Source: Chloroflexota bacterium
Lineage (GTDB): Bacteria; Chloroflexota; Dehalococcoidia; Lucifugimonadales; Lucifugimonadaceae
DNA length: 32,278 bases
Assembly (NCBI GenBank): GCA_024275195.1
Contig: JAJRZP010000151.1
Coordinates: 1-32,278, forward strand
Direction of reading: 5' to 3'
Position numbers and translations under genes: made by a program. Below, piece after piece: positions 1,910 through 13,197 of this stretch (its first letter is position 1; every line of letters starts with the position of its first letter). The notes beneath the pieces are model-generated. The model was given only the letters and a program-made list of their open reading frames with translations. It was not told the DNA's origin and made no database searches.

Positions 1910-2946
1910 TCGCCGCCAACATACTGGTCGGTAGCCTCGTTGAGCGCTTCGAATTCGTCAGCCGATAAATTCCACGTCATAGCCAGCGCATTATCGGTCG
2001 CCTGAGCCGCCGATTTCGCCCCCGGAATGGGCAGCGTGTTTCTTGCGATGAGCCAGTTCAGTACCACCTGAGAAGCAGAGGCATTGTGAGCATTTGCAAT
2101 GTCACTCATGAGCGATATCAGCGGTGGCAGCATTTTTAGTCGTTTGCGTGCCCATCTCCATCTACGCAGCAGTGGTGGAGGGTTCTCGGTGCGGTACTTT
2201 CCAGTGAGCAGACCTTCAGATAGTGGACCGTACGAGATAACCGAGATACCCAGATCATGGCACGTATCCAGAATTCCATTCGATTCGATCTTGCGGTTTA
2301 GCAGGCTGTAGCCGACCTGATTCGTTGCGAGGACGACTCCACGCCTTGAGAGAAGTTCATGGGCACGCTTCGTCTGCTCTGCCGAAAAGTTTGAAACCCC
2401 CACCGCTTTGACCAGCCCGTCCTGTGCTGCATCGGCAAGTGCATCGACCCAGTACTCGAAACTGCGAGGTCGAAAGGGGAAATGGATCTGGTAGAGATCT
2501 ATCGAATCGGCATTGAGACGGCGAAGGCTTGCATTGACCGCCCGACGAAGCGAAAATCGATGCCACCTCCACGGATAAGGAAAGAATTTTGTTGCCACCA
2601 GCGGTCTGGCAGATGATGCGTTCTGGGGCGTGACTGCGCCGTTGACCAGACCGCCTACTATTCGTTCAGAGCGACCTCGGCCATAGATTTCGGCAGTATC
2701 AAACCAGTTGATTCCATGTTGGATACTCGCGGCGTAGGCTTCGAACAGATCGACATCGGAATACGAGCGACCGTATCCCCAGTAAAACGCTCCACCCCAC
2801 TGCCAGGTACCAGTTCCGATTGGGCTGACTTTCAGATCGGATTGTCCGAGTGAGGTGAGTTTTGTTGCCGTGGTCACGAGATTCGCGGAGTTGTTGTCGT
2901 TGGGATTCACTGCCACAAGGTTACGGCCTATCACGTAAATCGGCAT
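1906..2946 (-). CDS. Aldo/keto reductase
   Basis: LTSLGQSDLKVSPIGTGTWQWGG, GINWFDTAEIYGRGRSERIVGG, IDLYQIHFP, VKAVGVSNFSAEQ and NQVGYSLLNR are AKR hallmarks. The true start may be internal (for example the GTG before TTATKLTSLGQ). Confidence 0.9.
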   Translation of the reverse strand: MPIYVIGRNLVAVNPNDNNSANLVTTATKLTSLGQSDLKVSPIGTGTWQWGGAFYWGYGRSYSDVDLFEAYAASIQHGINWFDTAEIYGRGRSERIVGGLVNGAVTPQNASSARPLVATKFFPYPWRWHRFSLRRAVNASLRRLNADSIDLYQIHFPFRPRSFEYWVDALADAAQDGLVKAVGVSNFSAEQTKRAHELLSRRGVVLATNQVGYSLLNRKIESNGILDTCHDLGISVISYGPLSEGLLTGKYRTENPPPLLRRWRWARKRLKMLPPLISLMSDIANAHNASASQVVLNWLIARNTLPIPGAKSAAQATDNALAMTWNLSADEFEALNEATDQYVGGD

Positions 2947-3023
2947 TGATACCCGTTCAATACTGGCTTAGTCTTCCGGCAGAATCCAATGAATCCCGAT
3001 GGTGCCGAACAAGCGCACTCGGA

Positions 3024-4541
3024 ATGCACGACCGGAGTAGTACATTGTCCGCAGTTCAACCGCGACCTAATATCGTTTTTCTGTTCCCTGACCAGTTTCG
3101 AGCCGATTTTGCCGGGTGCAACGGTGCCGACTGGTTACAGACGCCAAATATCGATTCGATTGCAGAGAATGGCGTGCGTTATACAAATTCATTCTCGGCA
3201 TCACCGATCTGTGTGCCCGCCCGTACGGCGCTGTTGACGGGAATGAACGCCATGCGAAACGGTGTCATGGGCAATCTTCAGAATCTTAGGGCTGACTGGC
3301 GGGATGCCGGTCTGCGCACGTGGCCTGAAATTCTCGGAGAAAACGGCTACTACACAGCGGGCATCGGCAAGATGCACTTCTACCCGTGGGACGAGCGACG
3401 CGGTTTCCAGTATCGGGTTGTCTGCGAGGACAAGCGCTGGCTTGAAGTACGCGACGACTACTATCACTACCTGCGTCGGCACGGTCTACGAAAGCTGCAC
3501 GGCAATGAAATGCCCGGCTACCACGAGAACAAAGGGGCAGTGATCCACAACGTTCCATGGGAGCACTCGTGGGATAGGTTTGTGGGTTCGGAAGCAGTGA
3601 AATTCATCGAGGATTACGGTGCTGACCAGCCGTTCGCCATGATGGTCGGCTTCCCCGGCCCCCACTGCCCGTACGATCCTGGCGAACGATTTCTGGAAGG
3701 AATAGACGAATCGAAGATTCCTGAGGCTGCACCCGAGGTGCCGGGCCATACTCCCCATCTGCGCCAAGGCAATATTGATGGCAATAAGCGGCCATGGAAC
3801 GGTGTTGACTACACCGAGTTCCCGGATTCGGCAAAGCACACGGTTAGGAAGCACTACTCGGGATTGGTACAGCAAATCGACTTCGAAGTCGGGGCGATTC
3901 TGGATGCACTACGGAAAAGAGGATTGCTCGAAAACACGTACGTCATCCTAGCTTCCGATCACGGCGACTATCTCGGTGATCATAACCTGATCGGCAAAGC
4001 ATCGTTTTATGAATCGGCAATACGGGTGCCAATGGTTGCCATGGGACCGGGTATTGAGGCAGGTCAGGTTCAGGAAGGCATGGTCGAACTACGCGACGTT
4101 ACTGCAACGATGCTCGCCTGGGCAGGGGTTGAGCAGCCGGGCTGGTATGACGCCATGCCGCTGCCGGGCGAGGGCATGCCGGGCGACTCGGCCCGAGAGA
4201 ACATCTTCGGCCTTCTCGGTGACGGTTGGATGAATTTCGATGGTCGTTACAAACTGCATAAGTACCGGACTGGCGAGACACTTCTGTTCGACATGCTGAA
4301 CGATCCGCAAGAGCAGGTGAATCTGTACGAGAACGCCGAGTTTGCGGATATAGTGCGGCGGCTGGAGGTTGAACTGACTGTCGAGTTGATGGAGTCGGTG
4401 GAGTCCTCGATGGACGACCGGCTGGCACAGAACGGTGACATGTCGCAGGATCCGACATTTGGTTACGAAAGCTGGGTTCGCCCGTGGCCCAATGCGCCAA
4501 GGACAAGTTCGCCAACCTATGAGAAACCGAAGACTGTATAA
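3024..4541 (+). CDS. Sulfatase (type I, Cys-type formylglycine motif)
   Basis: RPNIVFLFPDQFRADFAGCNG, SPICVPARTALLTG (C-x-P-x-R), SDHGDYLGDHNLIGK. The ORF opens at 2862, but the internal ATG at 3024 avoids overlap with the divergent AKR gene. Confidence 0.9.
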   Translation: MHDRSSTLSAVQPRPNIVFLFPDQFRADFAGCNGADWLQTPNIDSIAENGVRYTNSFSASPICVPARTALLTGMNAMRNGVMGNLQNLRADWRDAGLRTWPEILGENGYYTAGIGKMHFYPWDERRGFQYRVVCEDKRWLEVRDDYYHYLRRHGLRKLHGNEMPGYHENKGAVIHNVPWEHSWDRFVGSEAVKFIEDYGADQPFAMMVGFPGPHCPYDPGERFLEGIDESKIPEAAPEVPGHTPHLRQGNIDGNKRPWNGVDYTEFPDSAKHTVRKHYSGLVQQIDFEVGAILDALRKRGLLENTYVILASDHGDYLGDHNLIGKASFYESAIRVPMVAMGPGIEAGQVQEGMVELRDVTATMLAWAGVEQPGWYDAMPLPGEGMPGDSARENIFGLLGDGWMNFDGRYKLHKYRTGETLLFDMLNDPQEQVNLYENAEFADIVRRLEVELTVELMESVESSMDDRLAQNGDMSQDPTFGYESWVRPWPNAPRTSSPTYEKPKTV

Positions 4542-4714
4542 ATGACGAACTACTTCTCCTGTGGGAGAAAATCCGATTCAGTGACCAGAAAGTAGGCACG
4601 ATCAAACTAATAATGGTGTGACCGTACCGAAAACACCTTTGCCACTGAGCTATCCAACCCAGCCCTCTACCTCAGATGAGGATGTTTAAACACATTCTTA
4701 TACAGGAGCCACCG

Positions 4715-6394
4715 ATGCCAGAAAACCCAGCGTCCGAACCCATCAAGAAACCAAATATCATCGTGATGATGGTCGACGATCTGGGGTACTCCGATCTTGG
4801 GTGCTATGGCGGTGAGATAAGCACCCCGAATATCGATTCACTCGGCTATAACGGCTTGCGATTTACCCAGATGTACAACGGCGCCAGATGCTGTCCATCA
4901 AGAGCGGCGTTGCTGACGGGCCTGCATCCCCATCAGGCAGGTATCGGCCAGATGACGGCTGATCTCGGGGTTCCTGCCTACCAGGGCTACTTGCGAGAGG
5001 GCTGTGTGACTATCGCCGAGGTGATGAAGACCGCCGGATATCGGACGATGATTTCTGGCAAGTGGCACGTTTCTGGCAGTTGGGACAATCGAAATCGAGA
5101 TAACTGGATTCTGGGCGATAAGAAGCATCCACTGCCCAAGCAACGTGGCTTCGATCGGTCGTTCGGCTTGCTCAACGCCGCCGATTCCTTCTGGAACCCG
5201 AAATCTCTCATCCTTGAGGACGTTCTAATCGACGTCGAAACCAACGACTTCCATATGACCGACGCGATCGGCGATCACGCGGTGAACCAGATCGAGGAAT
5301 CGGTCGAGATGGGCATGCCGTTCTTCCAGTACGTTGCCTTCACTGCGCCCCACTGGCCGCTTCATGCATGGGAAGACGACATCGTGAAGTATGAAGGCAA
5401 ATACATGGCCGGGTACGATGCCATTCGCACGTCACGCCACGAACAGCAGAAGGGTCTCGGGGTTGTTGACGACGGGTGGGTGATTTCACCTCGAGATTCC
5501 GACTCGCCCGATTGGAACGACGTTCAAAACAAGGAATACGAAGACATTCGCATGGCAACCTACGCCGCCATGATCGAACAAGTAGATCGTACTGTCGGCC
5601 GGATAGTGGATTCACTCAAAAAGGCTGGCGTGTTCGAAAACACCGTCATCATGTTCCTGTCAGACAACGGTGGTTGTGCCGAGTTGTTCCAAGAGGATTC
5701 AGACTGGCCGGACGCCTCGCAGTGGGAGACTTCGACTACGCTTGATGGTGAGCCGGTGCGTGTTGGCGACATTCCTGAGCTGCGACCCGGCCCTGACACA
5801 ACGTTTCAGGCGGTTGAGCTTCCGTGGGCAAATGTTTCTGACGCTCCGTTCCGCCTGTTCAAGCGTTGGGTTCACGAAGGTGGGATTTCAACGCCGTTTA
5901 TCGTTCACTGGCCCGAGGGAATTGAGAAACCGAACATCCTGAACAATCCGATGCACATCATCGATATTTCAGCGACGTGCTACGACATTGCCGGAGCGCA
6001 GTATCCAAAGGAGCATCACGACACGGAGATTACTCCGCTGGAAGGCGAGAGTTTCCTGCCTGCACTGCAGGGGCGAAAGCTGGAACGTGAGCATCCGATC
6101 ACGATCGAACACGAAGGCAATCGCGGGGTACGTGTTGGTGATTGGAAGCTAGTCGCAGAGTGGGACAAGCCGTGGGAGTTGTACAACATTTCGGACGACC
6201 GCACAGAGCAGAACGATCTGATCGACGGGGAGAAAGACCGTGCGAAGGAGCTCAAGAAGCAGTATTTCGAGTGGGCAGAGCGCGCAGAAGTTCTACCGTG
6301 GCCGGTCGATCCGAACGTGTTGGCAAAGCGGTTGAAAGGCGAACACGCCCATATCTCGCAGCACCGGGCAGCCACTGACGGAGTCTGGAAGTAG
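4715..6394 (+). CDS. Arylsulfatase-family sulfatase
   Basis: KPNIIVMMVDDLGYSDLGCYGGEISTPNID, GARCCPSRAALLTGLHPHQAGIG (C-x-P-S-R), MFLSDNGGCAE. AGGAGCC precedes the ATG at 4715. Confidence 0.93.
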   Translation: MPENPASEPIKKPNIIVMMVDDLGYSDLGCYGGEISTPNIDSLGYNGLRFTQMYNGARCCPSRAALLTGLHPHQAGIGQMTADLGVPAYQGYLREGCVTIAEVMKTAGYRTMISGKWHVSGSWDNRNRDNWILGDKKHPLPKQRGFDRSFGLLNAADSFWNPKSLILEDVLIDVETNDFHMTDAIGDHAVNQIEESVEMGMPFFQYVAFTAPHWPLHAWEDDIVKYEGKYMAGYDAIRTSRHEQQKGLGVVDDGWVISPRDSDSPDWNDVQNKEYEDIRMATYAAMIEQVDRTVGRIVDSLKKAGVFENTVIMFLSDNGGCAELFQEDSDWPDASQWETSTTLDGEPVRVGDIPELRPGPDTTFQAVELPWANVSDAPFRLFKRWVHEGGISTPFIVHWPEGIEKPNILNNPMHIIDISATCYDIAGAQYPKEHHDTEITPLEGESFLPALQGRKLEREHPITIEHEGNRGVRVGDWKLVAEWDKPWELYNISDDRTEQNDLIDGEKDRAKELKKQYFEWAERAEVLPWPVDPNVLAKRLKGEHAHISQHRAATDGVWK

Positions 6395-7191: not shown

Positions 7192-7677
7192 TTAGATTTC
7201 AGTGCGGCGTATGCGGTGCCACAGTGGGCCTTCCCTGCGCGCCACGATGATCACCAAGACTGCTACGAGAACGACAAGTACGGCTGAAAGTATGCAGTAC
7301 TGGCAGACAGCCTTGATTACGAACAGTTCGATAGCTGTCAGGTAGATTGATGCCAGTACGCCGATCCCCGCGATTCCGGTGACGATCTGGCGACCTCTGA
7401 GATCGTCTATCGGTGATTGATAGGCGTGCAGTGCGGCGAGCATGATGATGGCGTAAGTCCCCATGCCGAATGCCGAGACCGGGGTGCCCATTATCTTCGA
7501 CCATTTGCTGCTCAGAACCGTGTTGCACCCGCTGAGGCTGCAGCCGACTTCTGTGTGAGCGAGGGCATTCGTCGTCAAATACGTCGTCACTGCCAGGCCG
7601 ACGAGTCCGAAGAGGGCTATCAGGAGCCAGAGCTTGGAAGGCTGTGTAGAGATCGTCATTCCCTCACTCACGCTCAA
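7192..7677 (-). CDS. Vitamin K epoxide reductase (VKOR) family protein
   Basis: Multi-TM protein with loop cysteines (VGCSLSGCNTVLSSKWSKIMGTPVSAFGMGTYA) and the C-x-x-C redox motif (VCQYCILSAVL). Confidence 0.92.
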   Translation of the reverse strand: MSVSEGMTISTQPSKLWLLIALFGLVGLAVTTYLTTNALAHTEVGCSLSGCNTVLSSKWSKIMGTPVSAFGMGTYAIIMLAALHAYQSPIDDLRGRQIVTGIAGIGVLASIYLTAIELFVIKAVCQYCILSAVLVVLVAVLVIIVARREGPLWHRIRRTEI

Positions 7678-7689
7678 AACGAACCGGCG

Positions 7690-8394
7690 CTATCGTCCTA
7701 CTTCAGCCAGTGCCTCTTCGAGCCGTACCCGGTAGAAGCCGTAATCGCGCAGCCCGCCGAGATTTACACCGTTCAGGAAAAATGTGGGTGTCGAATTGAC
7801 CCCGGCAGCTATCGCCGCGTCACGGTCGGTCTGGACTTTGGGCAGATACTTGTTCGTACTCATGCAGCCATTGAACTGCTCCATATCAAGTCCGACCATT
7901 CCGGCGAAAGCACTCAGATTCTGATCGCTGTAAGCGCCCTGATTTCCTCCGTTCCAGTTGGTGTATACGGTCTGTTCGTACTCATAGAACCGCCCCTGCT
8001 CGGCGGCGCACTCTGATGCCTCGGCCGCACGCCACGACTCGTTACCGATGAACGGGAAATGCCTGTAAAGAATGTTTACGCGCCCGGTGTCTACGTACTC
8101 ACGAACGATCTGTCGCCCTGGCCCGAGGGCGAAATTTGCGCAGACTGATCACTGAAAATCCCCGAATTCGACAAGCGTGACCGGAGCATTGGGATCGCCG
8201 ATTAGCGAGCCACCCGATAGCAGCGCCGATTCATCGGCCGTACCGCCACTTGTTGGAAGTAGGCCGACAACAGCGACGGCTGCAACAGCGATGACTACGA
8301 CCACTACCCCACCCCAGAGCAGCCATTTGCTCTTACCTGTGTTGGTGGTCGATTTTTTCGTTTTGTTTCTTCGGCGTTGTTGTCTGGACGTCAA
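7690..8394 (-). CDS. DsbA-like thiol-disulfide oxidoreductase with in-frame TGA at the active site (candidate selenoprotein)
   Basis: The track ORFs 8149..8394 and 7690..7899 share one frame, and hand translation of 8148..7900 shows no other stop. Product: N-terminal basic stretch plus TM anchor, then GDPNAPVTLVEFGDFQ-[TGA]-SVCANFALGPGRQIVREYVDTGRVNILYRHFPFIGNESWRAAEASECAAEQGRFYEYEQTVYTNWNGGNQGAYSDQNLSAFAGMVGLDMEQFNGCMSTNKYLPKVQTDRDAAIAAGVNSTPTFFLNGVNLGG. TPTFFLNG is the cis-Pro loop. TTG start, TAG terminal stop. Confidence 0.85.
8113..8132 (-). promoter_or_regulatory. Candidate bacterial SECIS (bSECIS) hairpin downstream of the in-frame TGA
   Basis: mRNA-sense UCGCCCU-CGGGCC-AGGGCGA: perfect 7-bp stem and 6-nt loop with G at loop position 2. 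The stem begins at nt 17 and the apical loop at nt 24 after the TGA (8149..8151). Confidence 0.6.
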
Positions 8395-8459: not shown

Positions 8460-9125
8460 CTACGTTTTACGCCCAATGAAAATTATGTGACGAATACCAC
8501 CTTTGCCACGGTGTGTTTGGACCTGACGTTTCTCGGAGCGAAATCCGTTGCGACGCATTCGTGACGTAAATCTTGGCTCATCACCCGCCGACCAGATGGC
8601 GACCCGGCCACCGTTTTTCAGAGCGCCACGAATCGCCTGAAGTCCGTAGTCGGTGTAAAGCCACGCATTGCGCTCATCGACCAGAGCCGACGGACCGTTG
8701 TCGACGTCGAGTATGATGGAGTCGTATTCGTTGCGAGCCCCGCGGATAACTTTCGAAACGTCGTTCTGCACCAGTTCGGTTCGCTTGTCGTTGAGCGGGT
8801 GATTTGCGAACGGTCCAAGTGGCCCTTTGTTCCACTCGATCACCTCTGGAACGAGTTCGACCTGCACTACCTTGCCATCTTTCGGGAGAAGATCGAGAGC
8901 CGACCGAAGCGTGTAGCCGAGTCCCAGCCCGCCGATCATCACTCTGGCTCCGGGTTTTAGTTTGTTGCAAACGACCCGCGCCAACTCGACTTCGGAGTGG
9001 TGCATTCGAGTCGACATCAAAGGCAGGTCATCTGCCTTGATTATGTACTCACCATCATGTTCGACCAGTTCGAGACGAGTACCGTCGGGCGACACGGCCT
9101 CGCCGATTGTGATCCAGGGTTTCAT
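8460..9125 (-). CDS. Spermidine synthase-like SAM-dependent methyltransferase-fold protein
   Basis: MIGGLGLGYTLRSALDLLPKDGKVVQVELVPEVIEWN and YDSIILDVDNGPSALV match the spermidine-synthase-like Rossmann pattern. Confidence 0.8.
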   Translation of the reverse strand: MKPWITIGEAVSPDGTRLELVEHDGEYIIKADDLPLMSTRMHHSEVELARVVCNKLKPGARVMIGGLGLGYTLRSALDLLPKDGKVVQVELVPEVIEWNKGPLGPFANHPLNDKRTELVQNDVSKVIRGARNEYDSIILDVDNGPSALVDERNAWLYTDYGLQAIRGALKNGGRVAIWSAGDEPRFTSRMRRNGFRSEKRQVQTHRGKGGIRHIIFIGRKT

Positions 9126-9333: not shown

Positions 9334-10914
9334 CTAACCCGGGTAGTCGGGCTCTTCGAACGGGTAGAGTGGAACTCGACGGTTCTTGAACTCGAATGTA
9401 TCGAGATCGGCAGAGGTGACGCCAGGACTGTTGACGATGATGATCTCGGCAGCGACAGGCTAGTACGCAGGTCGCGGCGAGCTTACGCCCTTCGCGACAA
9501 CAACCCGATAGTCTTCCGGCCGTATGCCCATCGAGTACATCTGCTCACGAGCCGTGTTTCCGCTCCGCACCGACGTGAGCAAGATAGTCATACCATCGAC
9601 CGTGTTAAACAGCACTCGCTTGCCATCGTTGTAGAAGCGAAAGCCGCCGTGGGTTGGGCGAGTCTCCTCGTAGGGACCGTCGTGGATTACCGAGACTGTG
9701 CCAACTACATGGATCGGCTCGCCGTGCATATCGTCGGTTTTGCCACCCACGTCGATGGCAATCTCGGCACCGATGCCTGCTGTAACGCATGCCTCGACCG
9801 CCTCGGGGTCGTAGAGGGTCTGAAGGAATCCTGTCACACCCATCTCTTTTGCCACTTTCAGGATGTGGGTCGAATCGGCCGATGAGCCACCACCGATATT
9901 GTCGCCAACATCCATGAGTACGATCGGCCCGAGGTGTGAATGATCTGAAGGTTCGGCCTCTGCCAGCGCAGTACCGTCGCTTGGTACGTAGTTTTCAACG
10001 CCTTCCGGTTTCGGCCCGACGTATCGTTCTTCTGCCTGCCTCAGGGCATCGGCGATGCTTGCAACTGGCTTGTTGAGATCGACTCGCCTAAGCCATGCCT
10101 TTGCCGCCATGTCTTTCGCAGTTTTCTCAGCAAGTTCGGCATCCCCGTCGGTGATCGCTATCCACGACATGCCCATCTCATCGACGTCGGCGTACGGATA
10201 GCCTTCGGCAATCGAGGTGTCGAGGACGTTCGGGATTTCGTTCGCCTCAACACATTCATCGACAAGGCTCTTCATTGGCTCTTGCCCGGTGAACTGCTTG
10301 ACGATGTTGACCAGCATCGGAGGCATCTCGATGAATTGAACCGGATGGATCTCACCTTTCACCGTGCGATAGATCAACTCCGCAGTCTTGCGGGCACGTT
10401 GCTTGGCATCGAGATGTGGGCAGGTCCTCCAGACAATGCAGACATCGGTGTTGGCGACGGTGTCTTTAGAGATATTGGCGTGCATATCGAGCGTTACACC
10501 AACGGGAACATCTGGCCCTACGATATCTCTGACAACGCGGGTGAATTCGGCATCCATGTCCGGGTATTCCTCGGATACGGCCGCACCGTGATTGCTGATC
10601 AGAACTCCATCCCACGGCCCTTGATCTCGAAGCATCTGGTGCATTTCGCCGGAGAGACGGTCGTAGGCGTCCTTTGTGATCGTGCCAATCGGACCGGTAT
10701 TCGCGTACATCAGCGGTACTGCCTCGAAACCCAGTTCTTCGGCACCCTGAAGATAACCTGAGATTGTGTACTGGGATTCGGCGTATTCGTCGACCATTTC
10801 CTGCCCGCGGAGAATGTGCGCATTCTCGAACTGCTCGTAGGTTGCCGGAACCTTCGAAAACGTGTTTGTCTCATGCGAAATGCCGAGAATAGCGAATCTC
10901 ATCGTGGTCTCCAT
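9334..10914 (-). CDS. M81-family metallopeptidase / MlrC-like protein, interrupted near the C-terminus by an in-frame TAG (9460..9462)
   Basis: MRFAILGISHETNTFS, DGVLISNHGAAVSEEYPDMDAEF, VGVTLDMHANIS and IVLMDVGDNIGGGSSADSTHIL are MlrC hallmarks. After the TAG the same frame continues PVAAEIIIVNSPGVTSADLDTFEFKNRRVPLYPFEEPDYPG* as in MlrC C-termini. The internal start at 10902 (MRFAIL) is an alternative. Confidence 0.85.
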
Positions 10915-10939
10915 ACTGAGTTGGGCGAGTCGTGAACTG

Positions 10940-11734
10940 TTAGCTATCTGCCGGTCGAGATAATACCTCGACCCAGGTGGGTTTGAATCCCGCAGTGAGG
11001 GCAGTTCTCATCGAAGGGATGTTGGATGCGGACGTTCCGTAGTACGGAAGTTTGCCTTCGTTGAGAACCGCCTCGGCAACGGCTGTTGTCAGGGCGGGCG
11101 CGATTCCACGTCCCTGATGTTCAGGCGTAACGTCGATACCGAGTTGCCACATGAAGGGCGAGTCGGCGGAGGCGCCACATACACCGACTATTTCACCCTC
11201 TTGTTCGGCGATTGCGGCGATCATGGTTGGGCGAGCTGTTTCAGTTGGGACTTTGTAGATCGCATTGTGCCAGCGGGCGCGTTGGCCGATAGCGTCGGCA
11301 CCTTCCTGACCGACCACTCTGACGCTGTATCCAGCGGGTGCCTCAACCTGCGTAAGCGTGCTGTGGGAGACAGCGAACCGTGGAAACGGCCCGTAGAGCA
11401 ACAGGCCTTCAGGGCGTACGAGGTCGGCCATTCGCCCCATGCGGTCGGGCATAAACAGTTCGTCTCGGGTTGTCTTCGGTTTTGGCTTGAAAACTTCTTC
11501 AGCCCACGCCAGATGCTGCTCGTCAACACAGACGACTCCGCCAAAGCCGAGGGATGCAATGCCGATTTTTCCGGGATGGGGATCGAACAGTCTGTGTGCC
11601 GCGTTTTTATGGGCTTCGGGGTCTCTGACCGAGATGTGAACCCGTCCGTCGGTGAGATCGGATGAAGCGCACGACAACTCGGCGCAGAGCATTTCTACAA
11701 CCGTGTCTCGAATGTCCTGCAGAGTCTCGATCAT
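10940..11734 (-). CDS. GNAT-family N-acetyltransferase
   Basis: C-terminal MWQLGIDVTPEHQGRGIAPALTTAVAEAVLNEGKLPYYGTSASNIPSMRTALTAGFKPTWVEV is the GNAT acetyl-CoA binding pattern. Confidence 0.85.
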   Translation of the reverse strand: MIETLQDIRDTVVEMLCAELSCASSDLTDGRVHISVRDPEAHKNAAHRLFDPHPGKIGIASLGFGGVVCVDEQHLAWAEEVFKPKPKTTRDELFMPDRMGRMADLVRPEGLLLYGPFPRFAVSHSTLTQVEAPAGYSVRVVGQEGADAIGQRARWHNAIYKVPTETARPTMIAAIAEQEGEIVGVCGASADSPFMWQLGIDVTPEHQGRGIAPALTTAVAEAVLNEGKLPYYGTSASNIPSMRTALTAGFKPTWVEVLSRPADS

Positions 11735-11796
11735 TGTCCTGACAGCCCCTTAATTCTCCGTCAACTCTGGCATCGCGGGATCACGCAATCATACCG

Positions 11797-13197
11797 TTAT
11801 GAACAATTCGGTGGGCTGAGAGTACTCCAGTCGGTGGTTTCATCGTAGGTGTGGGCGAGTTGGAGCAGCGATTGATCGGTGTGTAGATCACCAGTGAGCA
11901 TCGCACCAACTGGAATGCCAGCGTCGCCGAATCCTGCCGGAAGGCTTATTGAAGGATGCCCTGTGATGTTGAACGGTGCCGTGTAGCAGGCATTGATCCC
12001 GCGCGAGTGCTCGCCGGGTCGACGCGATCTCTCGGCTGTGGCGAAAGGCGAAGTAGGGGTGGCGATGGCCTTGAGACTCTGATCCGAGAGGATATGCGAG
12101 AAGTAGTTTTTGAACGCACGCCCAACTTCACCGGCGTTGAGCAGATCGTTCGCCGAAAGAAACGCTCCCTGCAACAGGTAAACACGGGTGATTGGCCCAT
12201 AGGCGTTCCAGCTTGACCTGAGGGATTTCTGGTGACGCTGATATGCCTCAGAGTTGAGGACGAGGAAGTTGGCAGCGCGAGCTTCCGCCATTCCGCGCAG
12301 ATCGATATCGACGAGTTCACAACCGAGTGATTCGAGTGTCTTCAGGAACGAATCGAATACATCGACTACTTCTGACTCGTTCGGAGCCGACGCGATGAAA
12401 TCACGCGGTATGCCAATGCGCCAACCCCGGATATCTTCTTCGATGTTTGCCGCGTACTCAGGTACATCACCGGGCCAACTCATGTCGTCTCCGGGTTCAT
12501 AGCCAACCATGGATTCGAGCATAATCGCTGTATCAAGCGCGGTTCTGCACAATGGCGAGATTTCACTATGGCTGTTGTGATCCATGCCAAGCCGACTCAC
12601 CAGACCGTGAGTTGGCTTGATGCTAAAAAGATTGTGTGCGCCAGACGGAAGGAGCGCACTCCCTCCGCCGTCGGTACCGATCGTTGCCGCTGCCATTCGG
12701 GCCGTTGTCACCGCTCCCGATCCGCTGCTCGAACCGACCGACATCCTGTCGGGATTCCAGGGATTCCATGGCGGAGGCATCAGATCGGCTTCCGATGGGC
12801 GTGACCAGCCGAACTCGTTGAGATTGGTCTTGCCGATGACGATGGCACCGGCCTTCCGCAGGCGGGCAACTGTGGCCGCATCTTCATCTGGGATCCAATT
12901 CTCAAGCAGGCGCGAGTTGTCAGTGGTTTTCAGGCCCGCAGTCGGGATAGAGTCTTTGACGCCCACCGTTGCACCTGCAAGTGGTCCTAATCGTTCACCG
13001 TTCGCTCGTGCCGTATCGATTGCTCGGGCCTGCTTCAACGCTCCTTCGGAATCGACGGTGATGAACGAATTGAGCCGGGGATTCAGCCCAATGATTACGT
13101 CGAGGTGTGCCTGAACCAGTTCGACAGCGGTTATCTCACCTTCCCGCAACAGTCGTATCTGCTGCGAAAGCGTGAGCAGGTGAGGTGAGCCGATCAA
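11797..13197 (-). CDS. Amidase (amidase signature family, GatA/AtzE/HpxY-like)
   Basis: PLAGATVGVKDSIPTAGLKTTDNSRLL, VIGKTNLNEFGWS, SVGSSSGSGAVTTARMAAATIGTDGGGSALLPSGAHNLFSIKPTHGLVSR (amidase signature). TTG start overlaps the upstream stop. Confidence 0.92.
   Translation of the reverse strand: MIGSPHLLTLSQQIRLLREGEITAVELVQAHLDVIIGLNPRLNSFITVDSEGALKQARAIDTARANGERLGPLAGATVGVKDSIPTAGLKTTDNSRLLENWIPDEDAATVARLRKAGAIVIGKTNLNEFGWSRPSEADLMPPPWNPWNPDRMSVGSSSGSGAVTTARMAAATIGTDGGGSALLPSGAHNLFSIKPTHGLVSRLGMDHNSHSEISPLCRTALDTAIMLESMVGYEPGDDMSWPGDVPEYAANIEEDIRGWRIGIPRDFIASAPNESEVVDVFDSFLKTLESLGCELVDIDLRGMAEARAANFLVLNSEAYQRHQKSLRSSWNAYGPITRVYLLQGAFLSANDLLNAGEVGRAFKNYFSHILSDQSLKAIATPTSPFATAERSRRPGEHSRGINACYTAPFNITGHPSISLPAGFGDAGIPVGAMLTGDLHTDQSLLQLAHTYDETTDWSTLSPPNCS

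Follow-up and report, generated by a model that had tools for sequence, protein, structure and literature searches.

A predicted selenocysteine-containing, membrane-anchored DsbA encoded beside VKOR in a marine SAR202-type Chloroflexota bacterium

The window analysed here, a stretch of 32,278 nucleotides (contig JAJRZP010000151.1, assembly GCA_024275195.1), belongs to a draft Lucifugimonadaceae genome of 2.70 Mb in 171 contigs (92% complete), whose contigs have marine SAR202-type Dehalococcoidia as their closest named relatives, among them the closed genome CP046147.1 of Candidatus Lucifugimonas marina JH1073. The paper describing JH1073, which is in culture and belongs to SAR202 group I, makes no mention of selenium (PMC10444878). 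On the minus strand, to which all features below belong, the window carries a dsbA-type gene (Thioredoxin_4/DSBA; 7690..8394; TTG start, TAG stop) followed 12 nt downstream by a gene for a VKOR-family membrane quinone reductase (7192..7677) with a GCSLSGC loop pair and an active CQYC. The upstream neighbour, a spermine-synthase-like gene (8460..9125), is conserved in position across all dsbA-bearing genus members. Further out, the stretches 2862-6394 and 9460-13197 hold two sulfatase-like genes and a cluster of amidase and M81-like peptidase genes (named by eye), which fit the catabolic repertoire described for SAR202.

The dsbA frame is interrupted by one TGA (8149..8151). Without readthrough the open reading frame ends after 81 amino acids, and no start codon beyond the TGA yields an in-frame ORF of at least 80 residues. 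With TGA read as U, 7690-8394(-) translates into 234 residues, with the TGA as codon 82 in the context VEFGDFQ-U-SVC-ANF; both the coordinates given in the preliminary description and its placing of the TGA exactly at the first redox-active cysteine held up, homologues having TGA or Cys at that column. Pfam matches to the restored protein span the interruption, each scoring above its cut-off (Thioredoxin_4 PF13462, E 1.1e-31; DSBA PF01323, E 2.6e-10). The N terminus is basic and leads through a hydrophobic segment (residues 25-43, 8266..8322; a low-confidence helix over residues 25-42 in the predicted model) into the thioredoxin domain with FGDFQ-U-SVC; with zero Cys among its first 81 residues, the protein has an anchor instead of a lipoprotein signal. 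Sequence and alignment place the resolving residue of USVC at Cys85 (8140..8142). Cys129 (8008..8010), invariant in the alignment, is presumed to form a second, structural disulfide with Cys177 (7864..7866), while the equally invariant Pro203 of an STPT loop (7786..7788) is presumed from alignment and model to be the cis-Pro facing the active site.

TGA occupies this column in each of the 14 same-genus homologues found, which comprise the window's own copy and 13 more at 58-75% protein identity, so its position is not due to chance. Their active-site motifs read USVC, UPVC, USHC, UPAC, UPYC, UVHC and, once, UPVU. Because the closed genome of the cultured strain JH1073 has the same dsbA TGA, a base-call error can be excluded for the family. 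Further TGA homologues occur in genera g2, g6, g8 and g11 and in Anaerolineae, and more distant Chloroflexota homologues have either TGA or Cys at the Sec82 column; in g5, none of the three homologues has the TGA, and the two that are readable at the motif have CPSC. The two states cluster on the tree, requiring 8 parsimony changes as against 27 in shuffles, although its well-supported branches force only 2 of the minimum of 8. No relative was found among IMG/VR viral contigs.

Past the hairpin described below, a median dN/dS of about 0.09, with synonymous sites close to saturation, indicates that the downstream part of dsbA is under purifying selection. A single base separates TGA from the Cys codons, as a pseudogene or a sequencing error for TGC or TGT would have it; we nonetheless rejected this reading, the chance of which is negligible given the same TGA in 14 independent genomes, one of them closed and from culture, the purifying selection beyond the TGA and the frozen SECIS codons. 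Sec insertion follows selenium supply, and a shortened product is expected under selenium limitation, which would suit a regulatory UGA stop with the 81-residue membrane peptide as main product and readthrough as a minor event. The strong constraint on the downstream domain instead marks the full-length protein as the selected product and makes a regulatory stop very unlikely.

A bacterial SECIS hairpin (8113..8132) begins 16 nt past the UGA, with a 7-bp stem (UCGCCCU/AGGGCGA), the loop CGGGCC and 23 nt from UGA to loop. The hairpin fits the bSECIS consensus, which specifies a loop of 3-9 nt, a stem of 4-16 bp, a G within the first two positions of the loop, a spacing of 16-37 nt and a minimum free energy (MFE) of at most -7.5 (PMC13188914): it combines a 6-nt loop with a G as its second nucleotide, a 7-bp stem and 23-nt spacing with an MFE of -11.8 to -14.6 kcal/mol. 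Codons +7 to +13 after the TGA are synonymously invariant across the genus at positions where the amino acid is unchanged, and the 8-codon windows over the hairpin are the most synonymously constrained of the 223 in dsbA. Within the genus, 3 of the 7 stem pairs show compensatory changes and 99% of cells are paired, as against about 55% or less in each slid register; in a second clade, a hairpin in a different register is 100% paired and has compensatory changes at 3 of its 6 pairs. TGA homologues fold better than their synonymous shuffles (mean z -1.38) and Cys homologues do not (mean z -0.18), the P of 6e-6 being indicative only since the rows share descent. It takes synonymous shuffles, synonymous constraint and covariation to bring out the signal: a single-sequence fold of 61 nt against dinucleotide shuffles gave z -0.22. 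Synonymous shuffles place the lipoprotein-like g2 homologues near z 0, with a bulged hairpin visible, and a single A-C mismatch lies within the stem of L030/L031.

Several variants of the gene were also seen. In G049 (L029/L059, DUCO01000046.1), TGA stands at both active-site positions (UPVU) and, if real, would specify a UxxU DsbA; we did not accept this diselenide variant, as it is confined to this one genome and the neighbouring VKOR gene on the contig carries a frameshift, and the UPVU is likely an assembly error. Groundwater and lake Chloroflexi contain tandem or two-domain DsbA genes (L070, about 3000-5040; L109, about 2990-5570), several with TGA at the active site. A Cys homologue (L093:3048, CPFC) that is sister to a Sec form retains a stable hairpin at the place of the SECIS (z -2.09) and perhaps represents a recent Sec-to-Cys change.

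The Sec-trait gene set is complete in the parent genome. Profile searches recovered SelA (511 bits), a selB split into two pieces at contig ends (N-part on C96, 283 bits; C-part on C14), a selD (371 bits; L012, G000:C68:7699-8628, minus) with its own in-frame TGA in CAGUAGK, and a tRNA-Sec (66.5 bits) with anticodon TCA (UCA); SelD is itself likely to be a selenoprotein (TCAGUAGK). Across 76 genomes of the family, SelA scored above cut-off in 22 of 23 with a TGA-DsbA, the remaining one (G002) having a contig-edge SelA fragment, and in 31 of 53 without (Fisher P 9e-4, indicative only for genomes related by descent). SelA is missing from all four g5 genomes, and in g6 it is confined to the genome with the TGA gene. 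A tRNA-Sec above 60 bits was not detected in 3 of the 23 TGA-DsbA genomes (G055, G025 and G002), which are drafts searched with strict filters. The preliminary description had proposed to judge a selenocysteine reading by the presence of selA, selB, selC and selD, by the alignment of homologues and by a SECIS search, and each came out in its favour: all four genes were found, TGA is shared by the close homologues and alternates with Cys among more distant ones, and the UGA is followed at a suitable distance by a bSECIS hairpin that shows compensatory changes.

A reassigned code in which UGA specified some other amino acid, such as Trp or Cys, would account for the open frame and for nothing beyond it. 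As stated in the preliminary description, TGA also serves as an ordinary stop in the window, where it ends the GGT, ABC ATPase and PII-like genes, and the code is therefore not globally changed; moreover, a tRNA-Sec(UCA) and a SECIS are present and homologues have Cys, not Trp. With the tRNA-Sec in place and TGA stopping other genes of the window, we rejected reassignment as wholly improbable. The selenocysteine interpretation of the dsbA TGA is strongly supported by these sequence data, and we regard insertion of Sec at this UGA, which would proceed via SelB, tRNA-Sec(UCA) and the bSECIS hairpin, as nearly certain.

In the parent genome and in closed JH1073, profile searches each time found one Thioredoxin_4 protein, the exported UxxC form, and one further PF01323 protein with a TGA. 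The latter (L148:1232; G000:C169:16507-16971), which reads FIDYT-UPWV, lacks an anchor and lies upstream of rnc, has TGA in all 15 genus copies inspected, with a SECIS less obvious than that of the window's dsbA; it is a predicted second, cytosolic selenoprotein of the DsbA superfamily. These searches, which cover the DsbA superfamily rather than TlpA-type exported thioredoxins and which divergent members may escape, detected no Cys-only DsbA-superfamily protein in either genome, and the window's DsbA would apparently be the sole exported DsbA of the cell. Another genus member, G042, has an extra Cys-type Thioredoxin_4 protein (ECPYC). Because the only DsbAs detected in JH1073 and the parent genome are two selenoproteins, extracytoplasmic disulfide formation in Lucifugimonas-type SAR202 may depend on selenium, with a single VKOR tied to the exported Sec-DsbA, a possibility that we raise tentatively, leaning slightly against it.

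The predicted structure (mean pLDDT 81, the domain mostly above 90) places residue 82 immediately ahead of an active-site helix (83-90), with the STPT loop containing Pro203, and in the PDB it comes closest to Wolbachia alpha-DsbA1, C. diphtheriae DsbA and B. subtilis BdbD. A thioredoxin fold with a helical insert, a C/UxxC motif and a presumed cis-Pro assign the protein to the DsbA superfamily. VKOR, a partner gene that the preliminary description overlooked, lies downstream of dsbA on the same strand in 14 of 14 genus members, and of 19 genus genomes, 14 have both the Thioredoxin_4 DsbA and VKOR and 5 have neither. The two genes have the layout of a putative DsbA-VKOR oxidative folding pair, in which a VKOR with a loop Cys pair and a CxxC is encoded beside a DsbA; many Cys homologues also adjoin VKOR, including those of g5 and g8. 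From the model and its PDB matches, together with VKOR adjacency and co-occurrence, we infer a disulfide oxidase with a VKOR-recycled Sec-Cys pair. Sec82 would replace the nucleophilic first Cys of CxxC in a membrane-anchored, extracytoplasmic DsbA and form a selenenylsulfide with Cys85, from which oxidation would be passed to secreted proteins, and VKOR, its presumed recycler, would re-oxidize the Sec-DsbA and deliver the electrons to quinone.

Only context speaks for an oxidase over a reductase or isomerase. As a rule, a Sec-Cys pair is more reducing than a disulfide, which does not obviously favour an oxidase; likewise, Sec lowers the redox potential in thioredoxin folds, which counts towards a genuine selenoprotein acting as an extracytoplasmic reductase, isomerase or peroxidase-like enzyme, with VKOR a mere neighbour without direct exchange. 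The relative NF041057 is named thioredoxin-like and reviews speak of DsbG-like proteins, and Sec homologues outside g1 are often without a neighbouring VKOR, none having been detected next to those of g2 and most Anaerolineae. Conversely, VKOR is adjacent in every dsbA-bearing genus member and the five genomes without DsbA lack it, the Cys homologues of g5 and g8 likewise stand beside VKOR, and DsbA oxidases are among the nearest solved structures, so that this alternative appears unlikely, if far from negligible. A VKOR-linked thiol oxidase role is accordingly graded as fairly probable, and a Sec-containing, membrane-anchored, extracytoplasmic DsbA recharged by VKOR is, on the genomic evidence, quite likely as the overall explanation of the locus.

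Since standard gene callers split dsbA in two, an abundant ocean lineage seems to be without a disulfide oxidase, while the correct reading suggests that the exported disulfide enzyme of a cultured SAR202 bacterium depends on selenium. This reading also raises the question of why a usually reducing Sec-Cys pair would be used in a VKOR-coupled DsbA; the cultured strain makes labelling and proteomic tests feasible.

The preliminary description had cautioned that DsbA-like selenoproteins were already on record, and the literature (Sargasso Sea, GOS and reviews) confirms this: reports of DsbA-like or DsbG-like UxxC selenoproteins go back to 2005 (PMC1088965, PMC2398784, PMC5029168, PMC9312934, PMC13188914). 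Among them, an Rcas_1661-type UxxC protein (PF13462) appears as a DsbG-like selenoprotein (PMC9312934, PMC13188914). Its family, NF041057 (Rcas_1661 (seleno)lipoprotein, PF13462, UxxC), shares the Thioredoxin_4 domain and UxxC with the window's DsbA and is its sole NCBIfam match (E 1e-39), although the score of 136.6 bits falls below the curated cut-off of 190 and leaves the protein outside the family; the window's DsbA further differs in having a membrane anchor, not a lipobox, and a VKOR operon. The Sargasso Sea and GOS proteins (DsbA 1/2/3, UxxC or UxxV) share with it a marine origin, membership of the DsbA superfamily, a Sec as first active-site residue and a bacterial SECIS downstream; the Sargasso family, however, was placed in COG2761 and GOS DsbA in PF01323, the available parts of the two reports name neither an organism nor a VKOR partner, and GOS DsbA 3 (UxxV) fits the UPWV gene better than the window's DsbA (PMC1088965, PMC2398784). 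No paper found in our literature search brought together selenocysteine, VKOR and DsbA, and the SAR202 papers it returned do not contain the term selenoprotein. Cys DsbA-VKOR pairs, with structurally solved relatives in alpha-DsbA1, C. diphtheriae DsbA and BdbD, have the same fold and active-site layout, with Cys where the window's DsbA has Sec. UxxC DsbA/DsbG-like selenoproteins are thus already described and the present protein adds to them; what looks new is the VKOR-linked setting of a sole exported DsbA, to which our analysis adds a putative VKOR partner, the apparent lack of any other exported DsbA and a predicted second, cytosolic DsbA-superfamily selenoprotein (UPWV).
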